DNA from: Rhodoplanes sp. Z2-YC6860
Lineage (GTDB): Bacteria; Pseudomonadota; Alphaproteobacteria; Rhizobiales; Xanthobacteraceae
Assembly (NCBI RefSeq): GCF_001579845.1
Contig: NZ_CP007440.1
Span: forward strand, 2,732,001 to 2,796,000
DNA length: 64,000 bases
Direction: 5' to 3'
In this document: one piece after another, positions 15,997 to 26,446 of the stretch
How the letters are laid out: each line of letters starts with the position of its first letter
Position numbering within the stretch: the stretch's first letter is position 1
Program-made: the position numbers and the translations under genes
Notes under the pieces: generated by a model
What the model saw: the letters and a program-made list of their open reading frames with translations, nothing else
What the model was told of the DNA's origin: nothing
Databases searched by the model: none

Positions 15997-16243
15997 CGAG
16001 TGTCACTCCATGCAGGGAAGCATCCGGCACCCGCAATATAGGCCCGCGCCGGCGTTAGAAAAGTCATGTCCCCGTGAGCCGATGGGGAAGAAACCGCCTG
16101 CGAAAATGCGGTCCCGCAACGGTTTCTTGTCTGCGGCCTCTTGACCGAAAGAATAGTTTGCGCCGGAGGTATCCTCAGGCTATCGGAGCGCCAGCAAAGA
16201 CACCCTCAAAGACACCTTGCAAAAACTCCTCCGGAGGAACGCC

Positions 16244-17227
16244 ATGTCGATCTCCCGCCGCTCGCTGCTCACCGCCCTGTCGGCTGCTCCGCTCGTTTCG
16301 CTCCTGCCGCGCGCGGCTTTCGCGGCCTATCCGGACCGGCCGGTCCGGCTGATCTGCCCGTTCGCGGCCGGCGGCAATGCGGACCTGGTGGCGCGGATCG
16401 TGGGCGAGGGGATGGCGGCTTCGCTCGGCCAGGCGGTCGTGATCGAGAACCGCACCGGCGCGGGCGGTGGCATCGGCGCTGGTGTCGTCGCGACGGCGGC
16501 GCCGGACGGCTACACGCTGCTGACCGGCTCGAACGGACCGCTCACCGTCAATCCCTTCGTGCAGGCCAAGCTGCCTTACGATCCGCTGAAGGATTTCGTG
16601 CCGATCGGGCTCGCCAACCTCGCGCCGCACTCGATCGTGCTGAACAACTCGGTGCCGGCGAAGACGGTGGCCGAGCTCGTCGAGCTGTCGAAGAAGCAGC
16701 AGATCACGCTCGCCACCTCGGGCGTCGGCAGCGCCTCGCATATGACGCTGGCGCGCTTCAATGCCGCCACCGGCGCCAAGATCGTGCACGTGCCCTATCG
16801 CGGCGGCGGCGCGCTGGTCGGCGACGTGCTGGCCGGCACGGTGTCAGGCGCGATGACCGAGGTGTCGACGCTGCTCGAGCATCACGGCCAAGGCAAGGTG
16901 CGCATCCTCGCGGTCGCTTCCAGCAAGCGCATTCCCAAGATCGGCGACGTGCCGACCATGATCGAATCCGGCGTCAAGGATTTCACCGCGGCGAGCTATG
17001 TGGGCGTCCTCGCGCCGTCGAAGACGCCGGCCGAGATCGTGGCCCAGCTCGAGAAGGCGCTGATCAAGGCGTTGGCCGACAAGTCGGCGCAGGACAAATT
17101 CCTGGCGAGCGGCGCCGAGCTCGTGTCCGAGGACCTGCAGACCTCGAAGGGCTTCGCCGCCTACATCCAGAAGGAATACGACAACTCGCGCGAGGCCGCG
17201 AAGCTCGCAGGTCTGAAGCCGGAGTAG
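16244..17227 (+). CDS. Bug/TctC family substrate-binding protein
   Basis: The protein has 327 residues. A tandem-arginine signal (SISRRSLLTALSAAP) ends near AFA-A. The mature start YPDRPVRLICPFAAGGNAD, the A-V-V-I-E-N-R-T-G-A-G-G-G loop and APDGYTLL fit the family. The start at 16244 is chosen because GGAGGAACGCC directly precedes it; the upstream Met is nine residues earlier without a site. It is divergent from the monooxygenase/dioxygenase pair across 247 bases, so it may capture the substrate of that pathway (inference). Confidence 0.9.
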   Translation: MSISRRSLLTALSAAPLVSLLPRAAFAAYPDRPVRLICPFAAGGNADLVARIVGEGMAASLGQAVVIENRTGAGGGIGAGVVATAAPDGYTLLTGSNGPLTVNPFVQAKLPYDPLKDFVPIGLANLAPHSIVLNNSVPAKTVAELVELSKKQQITLATSGVGSASHMTLARFNAATGAKIVHVPYRGGGALVGDVLAGTVSGAMTEVSTLLEHHGQGKVRILAVASSKRIPKIGDVPTMIESGVKDFTAASYVGVLAPSKTPAEIVAQLEKALIKALADKSAQDKFLASGAELVSEDLQTSKGFAAYIQKEYDNSREAAKLAGLKPE

Positions 17228-17260: not shown

Positions 17261-17289
17261 TGATCCAACATCGCGTCCGCCCCGTACAA
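17261..17289 (+). promoter_or_regulatory. RpoE-type (ECF) promoter of the DUF2177 gene
   Basis: TGATCC at 17261-17266 is followed after 16 bases by CGTA, with the -10 region at 17285-17289. The spacing and both elements equal those of the two promoters between rpoE and the FAD oxidoreductase. The predicted transcript would start about 22 bases before a GGAGG-led ATG at 17318. The match to known ChrR-controlled RpoE promoters (TGATCC in the -35) is from memory of Rhodobacter work. Confidence 0.75.
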
Positions 17290-17317
17290 GCAGCATCAAT
17301 GTCTCTCAGGAGGCAGC

Positions 17318-17716
17318 ATGCGGCTTGTCGTTTCGTATCTCGTGACGTTCCTGGTTTTTACGGTCGTGGATTTGTCATGGCTCAGCATTATGGGCCCGGC
17401 GCTCTACCGACCGACGCTTGGCGATATTCTGCTGCCTGATTTGCGCCTGGCGCCGGCTGCCGCGTTCTATCTGATCTTTCCGATCGGCATCGTGGCGTTC
17501 GCGGTCAATCCGGCCGTCAATGCGAACTCTATCGCGACGGCGATCGGCTACGGATTCCTATTTGGCGTGCTCGCTTATGCCACATACGACCTGACGAATT
17601 TCGCGACCCTGCGAAACTGGACCTTTCAGATCACGATCCTCGACATGGTGTATGGCGGTTTCGCAAGCGCGTTCGCGGCTGCGTTGACGACACTGGCATT
17701 GCGGCGCCTGCTTTGA
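17318..17716 (+). CDS. DUF2177 family membrane protein
   Basis: The protein has 132 residues with four hydrophobic segments. The DUF2177 pattern is seen: YLVTFLVFTVVDLSWL at the start, LAPAAAFYLIFPIGIVAF, then GVLAYATYDLTNFATLRNW and a last helix with DMVYGGFASAFAA. Biochemical function unknown. It has its own RpoE-type promoter and converges on the rpoE operon, with 22 bases between the stops, so it probably belongs to the same stress response. The start follows GGAGG. Confidence 0.85.
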   Translation: MRLVVSYLVTFLVFTVVDLSWLSIMGPALYRPTLGDILLPDLRLAPAAAFYLIFPIGIVAFAVNPAVNANSIATAIGYGFLFGVLAYATYDLTNFATLRNWTFQITILDMVYGGFASAFAAALTTLALRRLL

Positions 17717-17738
17717 CCGGGATTCGAAAACTCGCCTT

Positions 17739-18548
17739 TCAGCGTGCCGGCCCCGGAAAGAAAACATTGGTTCGCGCCTGATAATCCCGGAAGGCTTGTC
17801 CGCGCGTTTCCATCATGTGTTCTTCAAGCGGTGGAATTCCGGAAACATAGACCAGCAGCCAATACATGCATGCGGGTGCAGCCAAAGCGAGCCAGCCCGC
17901 CGGATAGCTTCCGCTCAACTCCACGGCGATGACCGGATAAGCCAGCCAGGCCAGCCATTCGAAGAAATAGTTGGGATGCCTGGACCACCGCCACAGCCCG
18001 ACATCGCAAACCGCACCACGGTTTTCCTGGTTTCGCGTGAAGGCCCGCAGTTGCGAATCCGCCAAGGTTTCACCGGCGATCGCGATTACAACAATCAGCA
18101 GTCCGGCAAGGTCCTGCGCCCGCAGACCCGGCACAGGGTTGTGCGCGGCGAGCCAAACGGACAAGGCCATGGGAACGGTCACCACCGCTTGCTTCTGAAG
18201 CAGGATCCACATCTGCCATGACGCGCGATCGCCCCATTGGTTGCGGAGCTTTGCGTAGCGCGGATCGTCTGCCCGGCTGGCCGATCTCCGCGCGATATGC
18301 GCTCCGAGACGGAGGGCCCAGGCAAAGGTCATGGCGGCGACCAGCCATTGCCGCGGCGCAATGAATGTCTCGCCCGGCAGGGACAGCAACGCGCTCGCAA
18401 CGCCCGTCCCACCCAGCCCAAATGTCCAGACGGTGTCGATCCATCCGGAATTGCCGGTGCGCTGTTCGACCGCCCAGGCAAGCGACATGATCAGCGACAG
18501 CGATGCCGCTATGGCGATCAGGCCGATGATAAGGGCGAGCGCGGTCAT
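17739..18548 (-). CDS. DUF1295 membrane protein (steroid 5-alpha-reductase-like fold)
   Basis: The protein has 269 residues and about seven membrane helices. The C-terminal signature of the family is present: GLWRWSRHPNYFFEWLAWL, followed by SGIPPLEEHMMETRGQAFRDYQ and R-T-N-V-F-F-P. Relatives reduce double bonds in lipids or methylate them with NADPH or SAM; the substrate here is unknown. The ATG overlaps the stop of the hydrolase gene (ATGA). It is the last gene of the rpoE-chrR operon, so it is probably co-induced with the regulator. A role in altering membrane lipids during oxidative stress is inference. Confidence 0.86.
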   Translation of the reverse strand: MTALALIIGLIAIAASLSLIMSLAWAVEQRTGNSGWIDTVWTFGLGGTGVASALLSLPGETFIAPRQWLVAAMTFAWALRLGAHIARRSASRADDPRYAKLRNQWGDRASWQMWILLQKQAVVTVPMALSVWLAAHNPVPGLRAQDLAGLLIVVIAIAGETLADSQLRAFTRNQENRGAVCDVGLWRWSRHPNYFFEWLAWLAYPVIAVELSGSYPAGWLALAAPACMYWLLVYVSGIPPLEEHMMETRGQAFRDYQARTNVFFPGPAR

Positions 18549-19492
18549 TGCCGCACGACCGCTGCCGTCGGACGGGCGGCGCTCGCGGGCGAAGATTTCG
18601 CACCGCCGACAAAAGCGTCGATCTCGTCCAACGCCGGAAAAAATCGTGACACGAATGGTGCAAAGGCCAGCAGGATCGAGATGTGGCCAAGCTTGGGATA
18701 GACAACTTCGGTCGCCACATTGCCGTTCGCGCGAAGAGCTGCGGCGAGCTTCTCCGAATTGCGAGGGCTGACCGTCGTGTCCGCGGACCCGGTGAGCAGC
18801 AGCGCGGCTGGCTTGTCGCCTTTGGCAGTGGAACTTGCGTCCTTGGCAAAGGTGATGGGTTGCGTCTGCGCGCGATTGTCGCCGCCGAAGATCACCTTCA
18901 GGTTGTCGTCCTTGAGCGGCAGGAAGTCATAGGGGCCGGACACCCCGATCAGGCCGGATATATCGCGCGACGGGCTGAGACCAACGCCCCGCAGCCATTC
19001 GTCGTCGAGCGCGAGCATCGCCGCGATATGCGCCCCGGCCGAATGACCCATGATGAAGATTCGCGAGGGATCACCGCCAAACGCGGTCGCGTTGTCACGC
19101 GTCCATCGAACGGCCTCCGCTCCGTCCTCAAGGAACACCGGAAACTTGACCTCGGGGTAAACCCGGTAATCCGGGACAATCACGACATAGCCCCGTGCGG
19201 CCAGCGTGGAGGCGAGAAACGCGTACATGTCCTTGGACCCGGCCTGCCAGCTTCCGCCATAGAAGAAAACCAGCACCGGCCGTGCCGTCATTCCGTGCGC
19301 CCGATAGACATCGAGGCGATGCCGCTCGCCCTGCGCGTAAGCGATGTTCGTGACGCGATCGTAGCTCTGCAATTTTGCCAAAAGATTAGGAACGAGCGCC
19401 GGGCTGAAAACCGACGCGGCGAGCAGGCCGACCACGCCGGCCGGCAAAAGCCAGGGCCACCGCAATCGCCGGCGCGTTTCGCTTTCCGCCAT
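18545..19492 (-). CDS. Alpha/beta hydrolase, membrane-anchored esterase type
   Basis: The protein has 315 residues. An N-terminal hydrophobic segment (WLLPAGVVGLLAASVF) precedes the hydrolase domain. The landmarks are VLVFFYGGSWQAGSK (oxyanion-hole HGG-type loop with Tyr instead of His), GHSAGAHIAAMLAL (nucleophile elbow G-H-S-A-G), and later LLTGSADTTV (Asp) and KLGHIS (His). This is the carboxylesterase/BD-FAE group. It starts 5 bases after the chrR stop and overlaps the DUF1295 gene by ATGA, so it is in the rpoE operon. It may act on lipids or esters; substrate unknown. Confidence 0.88.
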   Translation of the reverse strand: MAESETRRRLRWPWLLPAGVVGLLAASVFSPALVPNLLAKLQSYDRVTNIAYAQGERHRLDVYRAHGMTARPVLVFFYGGSWQAGSKDMYAFLASTLAARGYVVIVPDYRVYPEVKFPVFLEDGAEAVRWTRDNATAFGGDPSRIFIMGHSAGAHIAAMLALDDEWLRGVGLSPSRDISGLIGVSGPYDFLPLKDDNLKVIFGGDNRAQTQPITFAKDASSTAKGDKPAALLLTGSADTTVSPRNSEKLAAALRANGNVATEVVYPKLGHISILLAFAPFVSRFFPALDEIDAFVGGAKSSPASAARPTAAVVRQ

Positions 19493-19497
19493 TGCTG

Positions 19498-20133
19498 TTA
19501 GATTCTCACGAAGGGCTGCAGCATTCGGCCGATCCAGCCCTGGAACCGAAGCTCTCCTTGCAAGGCGACAAGGCAGATGCACTCGGCTCCATCTTCGATC
19601 ACCGGCGTGTGCTCGATGTCCTCATCGGCTTCATCAAAATCACCCTCGGCATAACGGCCACCTTCGTGCCGGAAGGCGCCTTGAATGATGCAGGTCCACT
19701 CCGTGCCTGTGTGCTTGTGATGCGGCAGCGTGGTGCCGGGCGCAGCCTTCAGCATGAAAACTCGGGTGCCGCCGGCGCCCTTGGTGTGAACGTCACGCCG
19801 ATGGATGCCGGGCCCGATCCAGCGCCAGGGTCCAAGTCCATAAGACGCAAGCGTGCCCGGAACGCCGGGAGCCGCAGCACCGCGGTCCGGTTTTTGCTGC
19901 GGTTGCTCCGAAGCGACGGCCGCCAGCGCGCGTTGCAGTGCGCCTGGCGTCATCGCGGCCGGCTGGATGTCGTCCAGCATTGTGCCGCCGACGCTTTCAA
20001 ACGTGCCCACAGCCTTCCGGCAAGCGGGACAAGTCAGGAGATGGGTCGCAACGGCCATGAGCTTGCCTTCGTCGAGGCCTCCCGCGGCACACGCTGCCAG
20101 CGTCTCGTCAGACGGATGATGCACGATAGTCAT
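19498..20133 (-). CDS. chrR: ChrR-type zinc anti-sigma factor with cupin domain
   Basis: The protein has 211 residues. His6, His31, Cys35 and Cys38 (HLLTCPAC) match the zinc ligands of Rhodobacter sphaeroides ChrR at the same numbers. The C-terminal cupin has His139, His141, Glu145 and His175, matching the second metal site with a two-residue shift. In R. sphaeroides ChrR holds RpoE inactive until singlet oxygen or related stress frees it, the cupin domain being needed for release. Here the gene overlaps rpoE by ATGA, the standard sigma/anti-sigma coupling. An orthologous role is very likely. Confidence 0.95.
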   Translation of the reverse strand: MTIVHHPSDETLAACAAGGLDEGKLMAVATHLLTCPACRKAVGTFESVGGTMLDDIQPAAMTPGALQRALAAVASEQPQQKPDRGAAAPGVPGTLASYGLGPWRWIGPGIHRRDVHTKGAGGTRVFMLKAAPGTTLPHHKHTGTEWTCIIQGAFRHEGGRYAEGDFDEADEDIEHTPVIEDGAECICLVALQGELRFQGWIGRMLQPFVRI

Positions 20134-20735
20134 GACCGTTCCTCGAGCCGCTCCCGCAGCCGCTTCATTGCCAATCGCAGCCGCGACTTGACTGTGCCGA
20201 GCGGCAAGCCCAGCGCAGTGGCAATCTCCGCGTGCGGCTTGTTCTCGAAAAATGACATGCGAACCACGCTGACCTGGTCGCTTGGCAGGTCCTGAAGTGC
20301 GCTTCGGACCCGCTCATCGCGCTCGTCAGCGAGCAGCGTTTCGTCCGGCGGCACAGGCGCCTCCGACGTCAACACGTCGTAGATCGCTTCCACGCTGACG
20401 CCGCTGCCCCGGCGAGCCCGGTCAATGCGAAGATTGCGGGCGATCGTGAATATCCAGGTTCCGACACCGGCTTTGGTTGGATCGAACATGGCCGCCTTGC
20501 GCCAAACCAACAACAGCGTCTCCTGGGCCATCTCTTCGGCGAGACCGGCATCCGATCCCAACCTGATCAGGAAGGCCTTGACCCGGGGGGCGTAGAATTC
20601 AAAGAGCCTCGTGAAGGCTTCCTTGTCAGCATCGCGAGCGATGGCCCGCACCCAATCGGCTGGCTCGCGTACGTCCGGTTGCAATATCGGGCTCTTACCG
20701 TTGATGCCGCCATGCCAGGTGCGGCCACCACCCAT
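20130..20735 (-). CDS. rpoE: ECF sigma factor RpoE of the ChrR-controlled group
   Basis: Region 2 is visible in AFTRLFEFYAPRVKAFLIRLG and ETLLLVWRKAAMFDP, with GTWIFTIARNLRIDRARR as region 2.4. Region 4 is seen in LPSDQVSVVRMSFFENKPHAEIATALGLPLGTVKSRLRLA. The 211-codon frame from 20765 cannot be right, because its ATG lies at or before the predicted transcription start of the promoter at 20771-20799. The start is therefore set at ATG 20735 (201 residues). A TTG at 20684 with a better-spaced purine tract is also possible. It is cotranscribed with chrR, the hydrolase and DUF1295 and probably drives its own promoter. Confidence 0.92.
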   Translation of the reverse strand: MGGGRTWHGGINGKSPILQPDVREPADWVRAIARDADKEAFTRLFEFYAPRVKAFLIRLGSDAGLAEEMAQETLLLVWRKAAMFDPTKAGVGTWIFTIARNLRIDRARRGSGVSVEAIYDVLTSEAPVPPDETLLADERDERVRSALQDLPSDQVSVVRMSFFENKPHAEIATALGLPLGTVKSRLRLAMKRLRERLEERS

Positions 20736-20770
20736 CCTTCTATCTGACTGTGCCGAGGCATGCATGCCCC

Positions 20771-20799
20771 TGATACGAGCAAATTGTCGATCTGGATCA
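20771..20799 (-). promoter_or_regulatory. RpoE-type promoter of the rpoE-chrR operon
   Basis: On the minus strand TGATCC (20799-20794) is followed by 16 bases and CGTA, with the -10 at about 20775-20771. It is back to back with the promoter at 20808-20836, the two -35 boxes being 8 bases apart. The predicted start near 20764 excludes the longest rpoE frame. Autoregulation of rpoE is known for this sigma group. Confidence 0.82.
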
Positions 20800-20807
20800 C
20801 GCCCGAT

Positions 20808-20836
20808 TGATCCAACCCGGGCGGTCGCTCGTATCT
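20808..20836 (+). promoter_or_regulatory. RpoE-type promoter of the oxidoreductase-DUF1365-methylase operon
   Basis: TGATCC at 20808-20813 is followed by 16 bases and CGTA, then TCT, giving the same TGATCC-N16-CGTATC pattern as the divergent rpoE promoter. The predicted start near 20843 leaves a 30-base leader before GTG 20873. This excludes the longer frame whose TTG start (20807) falls inside the -35 box. Confidence 0.82.
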
Positions 20837-20872
20837 CCAGTCAGCAAAACCGTCCGTGTCCAAGGAACTCGC

Positions 20873-22243
20873 GTGACAGAGCGTCATCCGCGCCGTCTCA
20901 AGATCGCCGTCGTCGGTACCGGAATTTCCGGGCTTTCGGCAGCGTGGCTGCTACATCGTGCTCACGACATCACGGTTTTTGAACGGGATGGCCGTATCGG
21001 CGGACATTCCAACACCGTCGACGTCACGACACCGACAGAGACCATCGCCGTCGACACCGGGTTCATCGTCTATAATGAGCCTGCCTATCCCAATCTGACG
21101 GCGATGTTTCGGCATCTTGGCGTGGCTACAGAACGCTCCAACATGTCTTTTGCCGTGTCGCTGGACTGGGGGCGGCTGGAATACGCGGGCACTGATCTCG
21201 CCGGGCTGTTCGCGCAAAAGCGCAATCTTGTCAGTCCGCGGTTCTGGTCGATGCTTTCAGACCTCAGGAAATTCTATCGCCAGGCGCCGCGCGATCTCGT
21301 GTTGCTGAACGATTCACAAGCGACGCTGGGCGAATATCTCAACAGCCGCGGCTATGGCGAAGCCTTCCGCGACGATCATCTTCTGCCGATGGCGGCTGCC
21401 ATCTGGTCGGCTTCGCCGGAAACCATGATGCAGTACCCCGCGGCGTCCTTCATCAGGTTTTACGACAATCACGGCTTGCTTCAGATCAGCGACTGCCCGG
21501 AGTGGCGAACGGTATCGGGTGGGAGCCGCAACTACGTGCGGCGGCTTTCCGCTCCGTTCGCCGAGCGCATCAAACACGGCGTCGGCGTCGCAGCCATCTG
21601 GCGCAGTGAGCATGCGGTGGAAATTCGCGACAGCGCGGGCCGCGCCGAACGATTCGATCACGCCGTCGTGGCGCTTCATGCCGATGACGCGCTGGCGCTG
21701 CTGCACGAGCCATCCCCTGAGGAGCGGGAATTGCTGGGTGCGTTTGCCTATAGCGACAACACCGCCGTCTTGCATTCAGACCCGTCGCTCATGCCTGGGC
21801 GGAAGGCAGCGTGGTCGAGCTGGAACTACATCGGTCCTGCCAGAAGCGATGACGAGAAAAGCTCATGCACCGTCACGTACTGGATGAACCGGCTGCAGAA
21901 CCTCGGCACTGACCAATCGCTGTTCGTCACACTCAATCCGTATCGGCCGCCGGCGCCGCAGCACGTCCTCCGGCTCGAACGCTACCAGCATCCGATTTTC
22001 GGCGTGGCTGCTTTGGCTGCGCAGAAAAGGCTGTGGTCGATCCAGGGACAACGCAACACGTGGTTCTGCGGCTCCTATTTCGGCTCCGGGTTCCACGAGG
22101 ACGGACTCCAATCCGGTCTTGCTGTCGCCGAAGCGCTGGGCGGCGTCCGCAGGCCCTGGGAGGTTGAAGATGAGTCCGGGCGGATTTTTCTTTGTAAGCG
22201 CGCTGCGGTGCCGGGCGCAACGCCGACGGATCGCGCGGCATGA
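20873..22243 (+). CDS. FAD/NAD(P)-dependent oxidoreductase (amine oxidase/desaturase-like)
   Basis: The protein has 456 residues from GTG 20873, which has AAGGA 6-7 bases upstream. The dinucleotide-binding fold is at residues 10-38 (KIAVVGTGISGLSAAWLL, then VFERDGRIGGHSNTVDV). The C-terminal FAD-binding strand holds NTWFCGSYFGSGFHEDGLQS and leads to the final helix. The layout is that of amine oxidases and phytoene-desaturase-type dehydrogenases. It is first in an RpoE-promoted operon with DUF1365 (ATGA overlap) and a SAM methylase of the cyclopropane synthase family. I infer oxidation of a membrane fatty acyl chain; this is not shown. Confidence 0.88.
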   Translation: MTERHPRRLKIAVVGTGISGLSAAWLLHRAHDITVFERDGRIGGHSNTVDVTTPTETIAVDTGFIVYNEPAYPNLTAMFRHLGVATERSNMSFAVSLDWGRLEYAGTDLAGLFAQKRNLVSPRFWSMLSDLRKFYRQAPRDLVLLNDSQATLGEYLNSRGYGEAFRDDHLLPMAAAIWSASPETMMQYPAASFIRFYDNHGLLQISDCPEWRTVSGGSRNYVRRLSAPFAERIKHGVGVAAIWRSEHAVEIRDSAGRAERFDHAVVALHADDALALLHEPSPEERELLGAFAYSDNTAVLHSDPSLMPGRKAAWSSWNYIGPARSDDEKSSCTVTYWMNRLQNLGTDQSLFVTLNPYRPPAPQHVLRLERYQHPIFGVAALAAQKRLWSIQGQRNTWFCGSYFGSGFHEDGLQSGLAVAEALGGVRRPWEVEDESGRIFLCKRAAVPGATPTDRAA

Positions 22244-23016
22244 GCTCGGCGCTTTATGTCGGGTCGGTGATGCACCGCAGGCTCAAGCCGAAGCGGCACC
22301 GGCTGCGTCACACAGTGTTCTGGATGTTGATGGATCTTGACGAGATCGACGTGGCCGACCGGAAACTCCGGCTTTTCTCCCGCAACCGCTTCAACGCCGT
22401 CAGCTTCTTCGACGGCGACCACGGCGAGCAGAGCGCGGAGCCCTTGCGTGCACAAGTGGAGCGCTATCTCGCGGCGGCCGGCATCGCGCTGGACAACGGA
22501 TCGATCCATCTGTTCTGCATGCCGAGAATCTTCGGCTATGGCTTCAATCCTTTGAGCATCTATTTCTGCCGGCGCGCCAACGGCGATCTTGCCGCCGTCC
22601 TCTACGAAGTCCGCAACACCTTTGGCGAGCGCCACAGCTATCTGCTGCCGGTGCAGGACGCCGATCCGGTGATCCGTCAAAGCTGCGACAAGGCCTTCTA
22701 TGTCTCGCCATTCATGGACATGGCGCTGCATTATGATTTTCGCGTTGCGCTTGCCGATGCCGCGATTTCAGTTGCGATCACAGCCTGCGACCAGCACGGC
22801 CCTGTCATCGTGGCTGCCCTGACAGGACGTCGGGCGGCTTTGACCGACTGGACGCTCGCCCGCCTGCTGGTTGGTGTCCCTCTGATGACGATCAAGGTGA
22901 CTGCGGCCATCCTCTGGCATGCCTTGAAAATGTGGCTCAAGGGCTTCGCTTTGAAAACACGACCGCCGCGGCCGGACCTTCCCGTCACAATAGTCAACTC
23001 CGGCAGGCGACAATGA
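22240..23016 (+). CDS. DUF1365 family protein
   Basis: The protein has 258 residues. The family pattern is visible: LYVGSVMHRRLKPKRHRLRH at the start, then NPLSIYFCRR, EVRNTFGERHSYLLP and AFYVSPFMDMALHYDFRV. No cofactor motif is recognised. DUF1365 genes regularly sit between an FAD oxidoreductase and a CFA-synthase-type methylase in proteobacteria. The gene overlaps both neighbours by ATGA, so production of the three proteins is tightly coupled. Function unknown; a role in fatty acyl modification is inferred from context. Confidence 0.88.
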   Translation: MSSALYVGSVMHRRLKPKRHRLRHTVFWMLMDLDEIDVADRKLRLFSRNRFNAVSFFDGDHGEQSAEPLRAQVERYLAAAGIALDNGSIHLFCMPRIFGYGFNPLSIYFCRRANGDLAAVLYEVRNTFGERHSYLLPVQDADPVIRQSCDKAFYVSPFMDMALHYDFRVALADAAISVAITACDQHGPVIVAALTGRRAALTDWTLARLLVGVPLMTIKVTAAILWHALKMWLKGFALKTRPPRPDLPVTIVNSGRRQ

Positions 23017-24236
23017 CCTCTCTCGAAGCCTCGGCGAGTGCACTAGCTCCGTCATCGCGCCTGCCGCTGTGGTCCATTGCCCGCCAGTTAATGGCAGCCC
23101 GGCTGAAAGCCGCTGGCGCGGGCTCGCTGTCCATCGCCTTTCCCGACGGCGGCATCATCCGCCATCAAGGCCGCGAGGCCGGCCCGGCCGCAGAGTTGTC
23201 CTTGCATCGGTGGCGCGCACTGTGGCGGCTTTTCAGCGACGGCGATGTCGGGCTGGCCCGCGCGTATTTGGACGGCGATTGCAGCACCTCCGATCTCAAG
23301 GCTCTGCTCATGTTCGGGGCCGCGAATGCGTCAACACTGTCGCGCGCACTTTCAAGCTCGAAGCTGAGCGTTCTTTGCAGTCGGGTCCGGCACCGCTTGA
23401 AACGCAACACCCGTCGCGGAAGCCGGCGAAACATTGCCGCGCATTACGACCTGGGAAACGAATTCTATAAGCCTTGGCTTGATCGGACGATGAGCTATTC
23501 GTCGGCGCTTTACACTGCGGGCGGCCAGTCGCTGGAGAGCGCGCAGGAGGCCAAGCTTGAGCGGATTGCCGCTCTGCTCGAACTCCAGAACGGCCACAAC
23601 GTGCTGGAAATCGGCTGCGGTTGGGGCGGGTTGGCGAAGCATCTCGCGGCGAAGCGAGACTGTTCGGTGACCGGCATCACGCTGTCCGTCGAGCAACTCC
23701 AGCATGCGCGTTCGTCCCTTGCCGGCTCCGGGACTCGCGTGGATTTCCAGCTTGCGGACTATCGCGACGTCCCAGGACGGTACGACCGCATCGTCTCGGT
23801 CGAAATGCTGGAGGCCGTGGGAGAGCGATATTGGCCTGTCTATTTCCAAAAGTTGCGCGACTCGCTCACCTCGGACGGTGTGGCCGTGCTGCAGGTCATC
23901 ACCATTGCCGACGGTGTTTTCGAAGAGTATCGCCGGCGTCCCGACTTCATCCAGCAGTTCATTTTCCCCGGCGGAATGCTGCCGACGGCGCAGGTCATCC
24001 GCGAACAGGCCGAGCGCGTAGGCCTGCGTCTCGAATTGCACCAGGATTTCGGCCCGAGCTATGCGACGACGCTGCTCGAATGGCGCCAGCGCTTTCTCTC
24101 TGCCTGGCACGGCATCGAGGCTCTTGGATTCGACGAGCGCTTCAGAAGGATGTGGGAGTACTACCTCGCTTATTGCGAGGCCGGATTCGACACCGGCGCG
24201 ATCAGCGTCGGTCTTTTCAAATTCCGTCCCTCATAA
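23013..24236 (+). CDS. SAM-dependent methyltransferase of the cyclopropane-fatty-acid synthase family
   Basis: The protein has 407 residues. The N-terminal 120 residues contain DGDVGLARAYLDGDCSTSDL as in Cfa proteins. The methyltransferase domain has HYDLGNEFYKPWLDRTMSYSSALY and the SAM loop VLEIGCGWGGLAKHLA. It continues with VSVEMLEAVGERYW and FIQQFIFPGGMLPT. The family methylates unsaturated acyl chains within phospholipids. In R. sphaeroides such a gene belongs to the RpoE regulon. The start at 23013 is set by the ATGA overlap with DUF1365. It could make cyclopropane or methylated unsaturated fatty acids; sequence alone does not decide. Confidence 0.9.
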   Translation: MTSLEASASALAPSSRLPLWSIARQLMAARLKAAGAGSLSIAFPDGGIIRHQGREAGPAAELSLHRWRALWRLFSDGDVGLARAYLDGDCSTSDLKALLMFGAANASTLSRALSSSKLSVLCSRVRHRLKRNTRRGSRRNIAAHYDLGNEFYKPWLDRTMSYSSALYTAGGQSLESAQEAKLERIAALLELQNGHNVLEIGCGWGGLAKHLAAKRDCSVTGITLSVEQLQHARSSLAGSGTRVDFQLADYRDVPGRYDRIVSVEMLEAVGERYWPVYFQKLRDSLTSDGVAVLQVITIADGVFEEYRRRPDFIQQFIFPGGMLPTAQVIREQAERVGLRLELHQDFGPSYATTLLEWRQRFLSAWHGIEALGFDERFRRMWEYYLAYCEAGFDTGAISVGLFKFRPS

Positions 24237-24275: not shown

Positions 24276-25250
24276 TCAGCGCTGCTCCAGCCCGGCCTTC
24301 TCGCGCACCGCGCTCCACTTCTTGTATTCGGCGGCCACGAACTCGGCCCACGCTTCCGGCGTCGAGCCCTTCACGATCACGCCGGTCTTGGTCAGGCGGG
24401 ACTTCGTCTCGGGCTCTGCGAGAATTTCGTTCAACACCTTGTTGAGCTTTGCGACCACCGGCTTCGGCATGCCCTTCGGTCCGTAGAGGCCGTACCAGGT
24501 GGTGACGTCGTAGTTCGGCACCACGCCCGACTCCACCACGGTCGGAACGTCGGGCGCCGCCGGATCGCGATCCTTGCTGGTCACCGCCAGCGCACGCAAC
24601 TGGCCGGATTGCACCTGGCCGAGCAGCGCCGTCACGGTGTCGAACAGCACGTCGGTGTTCTTCGAGAGCAGCGCCGTGGTCGCCTCCGGCGTGGTGCGGT
24701 AGGGCACGTGCAGCATGTTGACGCCCGCAACCTGCTTGAACAGTTCGGCCGCCAGATGCTGGGTCGCGCCAAAGCCGGGACTGCCGAACACGATCTTGCC
24801 CGGCTCAGCCTTTGCGGCCGCAACCAGCGACTTGATGTCCTTGTAGGGATAGTCCGGCCGCACCACGACCAGCAGGCCCGCCACCGCGATCTCGCCGATC
24901 CACTCGAACGAATCGACCGGCTGGAAGCGGACCACCTTGGTCATCACCGGGGTGATGATCTGGCCCGCGGTCTGCACACCGAGCGTGTAGCCGTCCTTCG
25001 GCGCGCTCGCCACGGCCTCGTTGCCGAGGAGGCCGCCGGCGCCGGGCCGGTTCTCGACCACCACCGGCTGGCCGAGTTTCTCCTGCATGCGCTGCGCGAT
25101 GATGCGGCCGACGATGTCGGAGCCGCCGCCGGCGCCGAACGAGATGATCATCTTGATGGACTGGTTCGGATAGTCCTGCGCCGCGGCGGGCTTTGCGAGC
25201 CCGGCCGCCAACACGCACGCAGCCGCCATCGTGATCGTTCGAAGCCTCAT
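24276..25250 (-). CDS. Bug/TctC family substrate-binding protein
   Basis: The protein has 324 residues. A Sec signal (MRLRTITMAAACVLAAGLA) ends near AAA-Q. YPNQSIKMIISFGAGGGSD, the G-Q-P-V-V-V-E-N-R-P-G-A-G-G loop and PKDGYTLGV define the family. The start at 25250 follows GGGAGG. It converges on the methylase gene and diverges from another Bug gene at 25460 across 209 bases, making a back-to-back receptor pair. Ligand unknown and no permease in the window. Confidence 0.9.
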   Translation of the reverse strand: MRLRTITMAAACVLAAGLAKPAAAQDYPNQSIKMIISFGAGGGSDIVGRIIAQRMQEKLGQPVVVENRPGAGGLLGNEAVASAPKDGYTLGVQTAGQIITPVMTKVVRFQPVDSFEWIGEIAVAGLLVVVRPDYPYKDIKSLVAAAKAEPGKIVFGSPGFGATQHLAAELFKQVAGVNMLHVPYRTTPEATTALLSKNTDVLFDTVTALLGQVQSGQLRALAVTSKDRDPAAPDVPTVVESGVVPNYDVTTWYGLYGPKGMPKPVVAKLNKVLNEILAEPETKSRLTKTGVIVKGSTPEAWAEFVAAEYKKWSAVREKAGLEQR

Positions 25251-25459: not shown

Positions 25460-26446
25460 ATGCCGATGATTGGGCGCAGAACGTTCATCAAGCGTGCCGC
25501 CGCAGCGGGTGCGCTGGGCAGCGGGCTCATCAGCGCGCCGGCGGTGCGGGCGCAGGCGGCCTATCCGAACAGGCCGGTCCGCTTCATCGTGCCGCTCGCG
25601 GCCGGCGGCGCCATCGACTTCATCGCGCGCGCGGTCGGCGAGCGCATGTCGGCAACCATCGGCCAGCAGGTCGTGGTGGAGAACCGCACCGGCGCCGGCG
25701 GCGTGATCGGCATGGACGCCGCGATGAAGAGCGATCCGGACGGCTACACCGTGCTGATCACCAACGACAACGCCGCGAGCGCGCCGCACATCGCGAACCT
25801 GTCCTACGACTACACGAAGGAGCTTTTGCCGGTCTGCTATCTCGGCCGCCAGTCGCAGTTCCTGGCCGCGCACGAGACGCTTGGCATCAGCACCGTGAAG
25901 GAGCTGGTCGAATACGCCAAGGCCAATCCGGGGCTGGGCTTCGCGTCGTCGGGCGTCGGTTCCAACCAGCATGTGGCCGGCGCATGGTTTGCCAAGGAGG
26001 CAGGCATCAAGCTCGAGCATGTGCCCTATCGCGGCGCCGGGCAGGCGATCAACGATCTGATCGCGACGCATGTGAAGATCGCGTTCCTCGGCCCGACGGC
26101 GCTCGTCCAGCACTACAAGGCCGGCGTGCTCAAGCTTCTCGCCCACACCGGCTCGAAGCGTTCGCCGATCCTGCCGGAGATCCCCACGCTCGATGAATCC
26201 GGATATCCGGTGGTGCTCGACGCCTGGTACGGCGCTTTCGTGCCGCACGGCACGCCTCGGGAACTCGTTCTCCAGCTCAACAGCCACATGAACCACGCGC
26301 TGAAGGACGACAAGCTGCGCGAGACCTTCCTCAAGGGCGTGGTCGAGGTGATCGGCGGAACGCCGGAGGAGTTCGGCAAGCTCGCCCAGGCGGACTCGGC
26401 GAAGTACGCCCGCCTGGTGAAGGAGCTCAAAATCCAGATCAACTGA
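25460..26446 (+). CDS. Bug/TctC family substrate-binding protein
   Basis: The protein has 328 residues. The N-terminal RRTFIKRAAAAGALG carries a tandem-arginine signal ending near VRA-Q. YPNRPVRFIVPLAAGGAID, the V-V-V-E-N-R-T-G-A-G-G loop and PDGYTVL define the family. Either ATG 25460 or 25466 could be used; GGGAG precedes both. A Rho-independent terminator follows at 26472. It is divergent from the Bug gene at 24276-25250. Ligand unknown. Confidence 0.9.
   Translation: MPMIGRRTFIKRAAAAGALGSGLISAPAVRAQAAYPNRPVRFIVPLAAGGAIDFIARAVGERMSATIGQQVVVENRTGAGGVIGMDAAMKSDPDGYTVLITNDNAASAPHIANLSYDYTKELLPVCYLGRQSQFLAAHETLGISTVKELVEYAKANPGLGFASSGVGSNQHVAGAWFAKEAGIKLEHVPYRGAGQAINDLIATHVKIAFLGPTALVQHYKAGVLKLLAHTGSKRSPILPEIPTLDESGYPVVLDAWYGAFVPHGTPRELVLQLNSHMNHALKDDKLRETFLKGVVEVIGGTPEEFGKLAQADSAKYARLVKELKIQIN

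Follow-up and report, generated by a model that had tools for sequence, protein, structure and literature searches.

An ECF11-type RpoE-ChrR locus of Rhodoplanes predicted to drive furan fatty acid synthesis, with DUF2177 and DUF1295 as candidate membrane partners

Introduction

In Rhodobacter sphaeroides, the sigma factor RpoE is paired with ChrR, an anti-sigma factor for which eight zinc ligand positions have been described (PMC6852236), and an RpoE promoter there carries the boxes TGATCC and CGTA (PMC5036791). The same consensus, TGATCC-N16-CGTA, was obtained for an extracytoplasmic function (ECF) sigma factor of group ECF11 by chromatin immunoprecipitation sequencing in Pseudomonas syringae, with quantitative RT-PCR and reporter assays on some of the targets (PMC5507510), and the core ECF11 regulon is described as rpoE-chrR and furan fatty acid genes, among others (PMC6852236). 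Here we compare these systems with a locus of Rhodoplanes sp. Z2-YC6860, where a stretch of 64,000 nucleotides (contig NZ_CP007440.1, positions 2,732,001 to 2,796,000; the whole stretch is called the window below, and is numbered from its first letter) holds an rpoE-chrR pair, a putative furan fatty acid operon and a gene for the membrane protein DUF2177, each preceded by this promoter sequence.

The furan fatty acid genes were described in R. sphaeroides, where ufaD (a flavin adenine dinucleotide (FAD) enzyme, RSP1091), ufaO (a DUF1365 protein, RSP1090) and ufaM (a methylase, RSP2144) produce the 9M5-furan fatty acid, and RPA2571-2569 of Rhodopseudomonas palustris have the same activities (PMC7380195). 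The 9M5-furan fatty acid is reported to vanish upon exposure to singlet oxygen, and cells that do not produce it are reported to be killed by singlet oxygen. PSPTO_1043/1042 of P. syringae is an ECF11 system with the identical consensus, but its targets are scattered over the genome, and DUF2177 was not found among those described in the accessible part of the report (PMC5507510). In Stenotrophomonas maltophilia, divergent lipid-modification genes are likewise controlled by an RpoE-ChrR pair (rpoEc-chrR-chrA), whereas the cluster there has nine genes including two cfa genes, and this homologous system had no influence on singlet-oxygen tolerance in the portion of the work available (PMC11832516).

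Our reading, to which we assign a probability of roughly 85%, is that the Rhodoplanes locus forms a singlet-oxygen regulon of the ECF11 RpoE-ChrR kind, which drives a furan fatty acid defence, with DUF2177 and DUF1295 as membrane proteins of that defence. The basis for it within this analysis is formed by promoters, gene families, ChrR ligands, conservation and co-occurrence, while the sigma/anti-sigma mechanism and the Ufa enzymology are those known from R. sphaeroides and would apply here by analogy. The regulon itself is of a known kind, and what seems to be new is the comparative evidence that ties DUF2177 to the furan fatty acid pathway.

Results

The RpoE-ChrR pair and its operon

The genes rpoE (20130..20735) and chrR (19498..20133) lie on the minus strand with an overlap of 4 bp, and in the PDB their products best match one chain each of the R. 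sphaeroides complex. RpoE, an ECF11-type sigma factor, matches 2q1z_A, the RpoE of the RpoE-ChrR structure, with E 7.8e-39; ChrR, a zinc-binding anti-sigma factor with a cupin domain, matches 2z2s with E 8e-40. ChrR scores 201 bits against TIGR02451, above the cut-off of 124.5, and 226 bits against NF051881, below its cut-off of 300. In the alignment to 2z2s all eight metal ligands are kept, namely H6, H31, C35 and C38 and the H-x-H, E and H of the cupin, as had been stated in a sequence-only reading of the window that preceded this analysis. The window thus contains an RpoE-type sigma factor, an adjacent ChrR with HHCC and cupin metal sites, and TGATCC-N16-CGTA at rpoE and at the core targets, as is found in ECF11 systems. 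On the same strand, chrR is followed after 5 bp by an alpha/beta hydrolase gene (18545..19492; BD-FAE / Abhydrolase_3 in Pfam), which overlaps by 4 bp with the gene for DUF1295 (17739..18548), a membrane protein that probably belongs to the superfamily formed by steroid 5-alpha-reductases, sterol reductases and ICMT. Compared with R. sphaeroides, the rpoE operon of the window includes the hydrolase and DUF1295, and DUF2177 forms a third unit.

The genome has a second ChrR-like match (4979378-4979704 in genome numbering), which comprises the cupin part only and lies below the family cut-off; its 3.3-kb locus (L168) contains no ECF11 site at up to one mismatch.

Three promoter sequences in the window and eight in the genome

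An exact search on both strands of the window found three TGATCC-N16-CGTA sites, where 0.09 are expected and at least three were reached in 0 of 100 shuffles. They precede DUF2177 (17261..17286, plus strand), the rpoE-chrR-hydrolase-DUF1295 operon (20774..20799, minus strand; a predicted autoregulatory promoter) and ufaD-ufaO-ufaM (20808..20833, plus strand). The distance from the CGTA end to the likely start codon is 31 bp for DUF2177 (ATG at 17318), 38 bp for rpoE (ATG at 20735) and 39 bp for ufaD (GTG at 20873). The longest rpoE open reading frame begins only 8 bp past the -10 box; because this is too close for a normal leader, ATG 20735 is favoured as the start. The sequence-only reading had noticed that these three units start with the same pattern and had judged a chance origin to be improbable, and both points hold; it had also called the promoters identical, which is correct for the hexamer and the tetramer, but the spacers differ.

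In 20774-20833, the promoters of rpoE and ufaD are arranged back to back with their -35 boxes 8 bp apart, and this divergent pair recurs among relatives: in the two sets of relatives' loci described below, 49 pairs of divergent sites are separated by 1-58 bp. As a speculation, the two promoters may compete for polymerase, setting autoregulation against target expression.

In the whole genome (8.19 Mb), a search that the sequence-only reading had proposed as a check recovered the three cluster sites among 8 exact matches, a total not above the approximately 11 to which the window's shuffle rate extrapolates; the reversed pattern has none. The genome-wide count is therefore uninformative alone, and placement outweighs number. 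Among the five sites beyond the cluster, two are inside likely coding open reading frames (L001, L006) and two are antisense within likely genes (L005, L008). The fifth (L007, 6026247-6026272 in genome numbering) lies about 97 bp ahead of an ATG that is in frame with a possible gene for a small exported protein, and by its position could be either a fourth regulon promoter or a chance match. Since the 8 hits do not exceed the extrapolation and four of the five other sites lie within likely genes, the genome-wide motif search was dropped as a regulon predictor. A weight-matrix cut-off at the 99.9% quantile of the background was also discarded, because the background windows held true sites, and plain pattern counts were used instead.

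A screen that allowed for mismatches covered the loci of photolyase, folE, the second cfa gene and the second ChrR-like match. With up to one mismatch allowed, no site in promoter position was found at the loci of the genome's one photolyase above cut-off, its three folE genes or its second cfa gene; in this the Rhodoplanes photolyase and folE loci differ from R. sphaeroides. The cluster had been described as self-contained, which fits these loci, with L007 as a possible exception, but it does not hold generally, for in relatives folE is included and, in one operon, photolyase as well.

The putative ufaD-ufaO-ufaM operon

Directly divergent from rpoE, three plus-strand genes with successive 4-bp overlaps encode a protein of the FAD amine-oxidase-type fatty acyl desaturases (20873..22243; PF01593), a DUF1365 protein (22240..23016; PF07103, E 8e-78) and a methylase of the CMAS family that depends on S-adenosylmethionine (23013..24236; PF02353, E 2e-80). 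All families of the furan pathway are therefore present in one operon, in which the DUF1365 protein would be the furan-ring-forming oxygenase, UfaO. We regard the operon as ufaD-ufaO-ufaM, a known core target, an assignment made by Pfam family and gene order. In both respects the genes match RPA2571-2569 of R. palustris (and, for ufaD, RSP1091; PMC7380195). The likeness to the R. sphaeroides system extends over the sigma factor, the zinc anti-sigma factor and its eight ligands, the promoter boxes and the ufaD, ufaO and ufaM targets (PMC6852236, PMC7380195, PMC5036791), and the window differs in having all three ufa genes in one operon beside rpoE. The sequence-only reading was right about an RpoE-ChrR regulon, but it missed the identity of this operon and hence that the core of the regulon is known.

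Altogether, the Pfam families of the locus are DUF2177, DUF1295, alpha/beta hydrolase, ChrR cupin, ECF sigma factor, flavin amine oxidase, DUF1365 and CMAS-type methylase. Many relatives have a second CMAS-type methylase gene after DUF1295 (26-33% identity of the product to UfaM), located between DUF1295 and DUF2177 in L040, L042, L054, L056, L060, L063, L065, L071 and L083; the window has no room for one. On either flank of the cluster lie genes for TctC, the tripartite tricarboxylate receptor (16217-17227 and 24276-25250, both PF03401, and 25460-26446, assigned by sequence only).

Promoters of DUF2177 in relatives

DUF2177 is present in 49 of 100 genomes from the family of the window, whose own genome is one of them. 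From these genomes 48 DUF2177 regions were retrieved and 46 of them classified (L085 and L086 were left out) for the motif form TGATCY-N16-CGTW directly upstream of DUF2177. In the 25 loci where DUF2177 is linked to chrR, 17, from 11 genera, have a motif of their own before DUF2177. Five more carry DUF2177 in an operon behind folE or behind rpoE-chrR-DUF1295-folE, four of these with the motif right before the segment and L045 with the motif before rpoE, and three have neither, one of which (L084) is cut by a contig end. By comparison, the motif is found in 1 of 19 unlinked loci (L055), and it is absent from the 2 loci whose stretch contains ufa genes without chrR. When the upstream region searched was made a little shorter, 16 of 24 chrR-linked loci had the DUF2177 motif, at a shuffle rate of 0.0005. 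As a control, this shorter region has no motif before the operon-internal genes DUF1295 (0/23), UfaO (0/24) and UfaM (0/24), while it has one before ufaD in 21 of 24 and before rpoE in 11 of 20 loci. Across 18 DUF2177 sites, including that of the window, identity is 95% in the boxes and 32% in the spacers.

A second, named set consisted of 80 DUF2177 loci, from which 3 duplicates were removed. Of its 48 chrR-linked loci, 22 have their own motif, one a motif-led operon and 25 neither; the other 29 comprise 15 where the stretch holds ufa genes without chrR (2 with the motif) and 14 with neither (1 with the motif).

One could argue that the three sites of the window are there by chance, or are read by another sigma factor, with the cluster being constitutive or under a general stress sigma factor, and the genome-wide total, which lies below its shuffle extrapolation, would allow for this. 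We nevertheless consider it very improbable, as the reversed pattern is absent from the genome, the cluster sites all lie 31-39 bp before starts, the boxes are kept over 11 genera while the spacers diverge, and the motif goes with linkage to chrR (17/25 against 1/19). What the sequence-only reading had made out, an RpoE-ChrR pair with three promoters and three target units, fits the published ECF11 consensus as well as this conservation, and we infer that the RpoE of Rhodoplanes uses these three promoters in Rhodoplanes.

Genes resembling folE (GTP cyclohydrolase I; by sequence and tblastn) lie ahead of DUF2177 in ECF11-led operons of relatives, or are divergent from it with their own motif (L045:6782-11667; L061:9024-10109; L049; L053; L057; L060:10285; L063:10362). 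In one ECF11-led operon the folE-like gene is followed by a photolyase-like gene. A folate antenna of photolyase would account for such a pairing of folE and photolyase.

DUF2177 co-occurs with DUF1365

In the family sample, 48 genomes have both DUF2177 and DUF1365/UfaO, one has DUF2177 alone (a weak match), three have DUF1365 alone and 48 have neither (Fisher p 1e-23, a value that takes the genomes as independent and ignores shared ancestry). The corresponding split of DUF2177 against ChrR above cut-off, which 35 genomes have (60 have some match), is 32/17/3/48; of the 17 genomes with DUF2177 but no such ChrR, 16 still have DUF1365. The co-occurrence in the family sample is therefore independent of ChrR. 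A Caulobacter vibrioides genome that served as control contains all of DUF2177, DUF1365 and ChrR. In a sample of 299 genomes of the phylum, DUF1365 is present in 35 of 41 DUF2177 genomes compared with 94 of 299 overall. The sequence-only reading, in which DUF2177 was drawn into the response by promoter evidence alone, understated its case: 48 of the 49 DUF2177 genomes of the family have DUF1365/UfaO, and DUF2177 is found in rpoE-led or folE operons of some relatives and, in 4 of the 11 Planctomycetota loci described below, next to ufa genes.

These numbers bear on the question whether DUF2177 is a mere bystander, with a real promoter and genuine co-regulation but with a separate photo-oxidative role, such as repair or transport, outside furan fatty acid metabolism. 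Some unlinked DUF2177 genes adjoin photolyase-like and peroxiredoxin-like genes, and DUF2177 is missing from 59 of the 94 DUF1365 genomes in the phylum sample, so that the pathway can run without it. However, presence of DUF2177 in the family tracks DUF1365 and not ChrR, DUF2177 shares the motif of the ufa operon in both of the regulatory groups described below, and in one Planctomycetota genome it leads a row of DUF1295 and ufa genes. We therefore see the bystander role as an unlikely, though still serious, alternative. Separate DUF2177 genes with photolyase-like and/or peroxiredoxin-like neighbours (judged by sequence, no profile search) were observed in L067, L068 and L075.

A second motif shared by DUF2177 and ufaD

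A different promoter-like motif, G(A/C)AAC-N15/16-CGTA, lies upstream of DUF2177 in 15 of 21 loci without chrR in the stretch and in 0 of 24 chrR-linked loci (shuffle rate 0.001); the motif was first spotted in this same DUF2177 set, such that the 15/21 is no independent test. The 15 DUF2177 proteins concerned (L064, L066-L068, L070, L072-L075, L077-L082) are 34-40% identical to that of the window. When the ufa operons (L207-L221) were later retrieved from the 15 genomes that encode them, which represent 10 genera, GAAAC-N15/16-CGTA was found 25-36 bp before the ufaD match in all 15, and these stretches contained no rpoE or chrR match and no TGATCC site before ufaD. In total, the motif occurs 38 times in the 30 loci, of which 30 are the DUF2177 and ufaD sites, compared with 18 in one Markov shuffle of each. 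The matching motifs in both groups thus indicate that DUF2177 and ufaDOM have a common promoter type in each group. A full-length ChrR is encoded elsewhere in three of the 15 genomes (G028, G064, G089). Five further ufa loci have TGATCC directly before ufaD (two) or neither motif (three); in L226, one of the latter, a TGATCC site precedes a photolyase gene that is itself ahead of ufaD. As possible readers of GAAAC-N16-CGTA, EcfQ and EcfF of Bradyrhizobium were considered, and no match was found: the accessible text mentions GAAAC repeats upstream of ecfQ, without such a promoter.

Planctomycetota and Chlamydomonas

In Planctomycetota, the phylum of a Sedimentisphaerales genome, DUF2177 is found in 12 of 392 genomes, 11 of them above cut-off, and 11 loci were examined (ten and L153). 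Four of these have ufaD and ufaO beside DUF2177 and DUF1295, two more have DUF1295 with or without the methylase, and five have none of these, one being a 3.8-kb contig. None of the 11 loci has an rpoE or chrR match to the window's proteins at E 1e-5, a search that a distant ECF gene could escape. In L197 (4778-10041), overlapping or closely spaced genes form a row on one strand that starts with DUF2177 and continues with DUF1295, UfaD, a natural DUF1365-CMAS (UfaO-UfaM) fusion and a SOUL heme-binding protein. L153 (298-6231), from a metagenome-assembled genome, has the same families and DUF2878, with DUF2177 facing the rest.

The table of singlet-oxygen genes that depend on SAK1 in Chlamydomonas lists CFA1, CFA2, SOUL1, SOUL2, DUF1365, DUF2177 and DUF1295 (PMC4067076). 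These induced families coincide with those of the Planctomycetota clusters, whereas the regulator is eukaryotic, and furan fatty acid is not mentioned in the accessible text of that study (PMC4067076). A Chlamydomonas review remarks, in the part available, only on the CFA parallel (PMC8491031), and Ufa-like enzymes are present in Arabidopsis (PMC10940516). Among the matches listed in our literature search, none joins DUF2177 to furan fatty acids; key RpoE regulon papers lay outside its coverage.

The DUF2177 and DUF1295 proteins

DUF2177 of the window (17318..17716, plus strand; 132 amino acids; PF09945, E 1e-39) is a membrane protein whose AlphaFold model has four long helices (predicted local distance difference test, pLDDT, 93.8), and YxTYDLTNxAT is a conserved motif of the family. 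Neither a fold search (best E 2.5) nor a profile search gave a match in the PDB, and in a fold search of viral models two pass E 0.001, a Klosneuvirus KNV1 membrane protein and a DUF2177 protein of Tetraselmis virus 1. A role as potassium channel was set aside, as a chlorovirus DUF2177 protein is reported to have failed to rescue potassium uptake in yeast (PMC6163359).

For DUF1295, PF06966 and PF02544 are both above cut-off, and a C-terminal SRHPNYFF is invariant across 24 sequences. Its profile match in the PDB is 7c83 (E 6e-4), and its fold matches are weak, with the sterol reductase 4quv as the best (E 4e-3) and 7bw1 as another. From this weak likeness to sterol and steroid reductases, one may suggest that DUF1295 reduces oxidised furan products. 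Furan fatty acids react with singlet oxygen to give an ene-dione. An extended version would be a cycle of scavenging and clearing, in which DUF1295 reduces the ene-dione, the hydrolase clears oxidised chains and DUF2177 serves DUF1295 as membrane partner. The PF02544, 7c83 and 4quv matches and the presence of DUF1295 near ufa genes in many loci speak for it, but the superfamily includes methyltransferases (ICMT, PEMT), the weak PDB matches span reductases and a methyltransferase, and no Foldseek match lies below E 0.001, which makes this cycle a doubtful proposition.

Discussion

By analogy with R. sphaeroides, we envisage that in unstressed cells ChrR would hold RpoE through its zinc-bound N-terminal domain, and that singlet oxygen or organic peroxides would lead to loss of ChrR and set RpoE free. 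Free RpoE would then transcribe its own operon, a positive feedback yielding more RpoE and ChrR, and it would transcribe ufaD-ufaO-ufaM, whose products would convert phospholipid vaccenyl chains by methylation, desaturation and oxygenation into the furan fatty acid, which singlet oxygen would consume. From the third TGATCC-N16-CGTA promoter, RpoE would transcribe DUF2177, and DUF2177 and DUF1295 would act on or after the furan phospholipid and thus probably serve the furan-lipid defence.

Several observations weigh against our reading of the locus as a furan fatty acid regulon that includes DUF2177. More than half of the chrR-linked loci of the named set (25 of 48) have neither their own motif nor a motif-led operon. 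Ten of these 25 lie on the same strand after the ufaM match and more than 220 bp off, for example in Rhizobium and Brucella/Ochrobactrum, and five, among them three of five Bosea loci, show a TGAACC box instead. Before rpoE, the stretch examined shows the motif in no more than 11 of 20 loci of the family and 30 of 46 of the named set, in part owing to approximate start positions. DUF1365 is missing from 6 of the 41 DUF2177 genomes of the phylum sample, to which the DUF1365 genomes without DUF2177 and the shared ancestry behind the Fisher p-values are to be added. Given that the S. maltophilia system is without effect on singlet-oxygen tolerance, the signal may also differ here.

On balance, we lean, if only slightly, towards a broader view in which DUF2177, together with DUF1295, is an unrecognised conserved part of a furan fatty acid defence against singlet oxygen that is common to Proteobacteria, Planctomycetota and green algae. 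Its genes would track the ufa genes across regulators, with ECF11 (TGATCC-N16-CGTA) in one group, another ECF-type factor (GAAAC-N16-CGTA) in a second and neither recognised in Planctomycetota. The comparison thereby suggests a natural case in which a pathway may keep its gene set while switching its sigma factor, and it connects bacterial operons with the singlet-oxygen gene list of a green alga. Two membrane protein families, DUF2177 and DUF1295, become linkable to a specific chemical defence and testable, and the locus bears on the question of what becomes of the furan lipid after its reaction and how it shields membranes.

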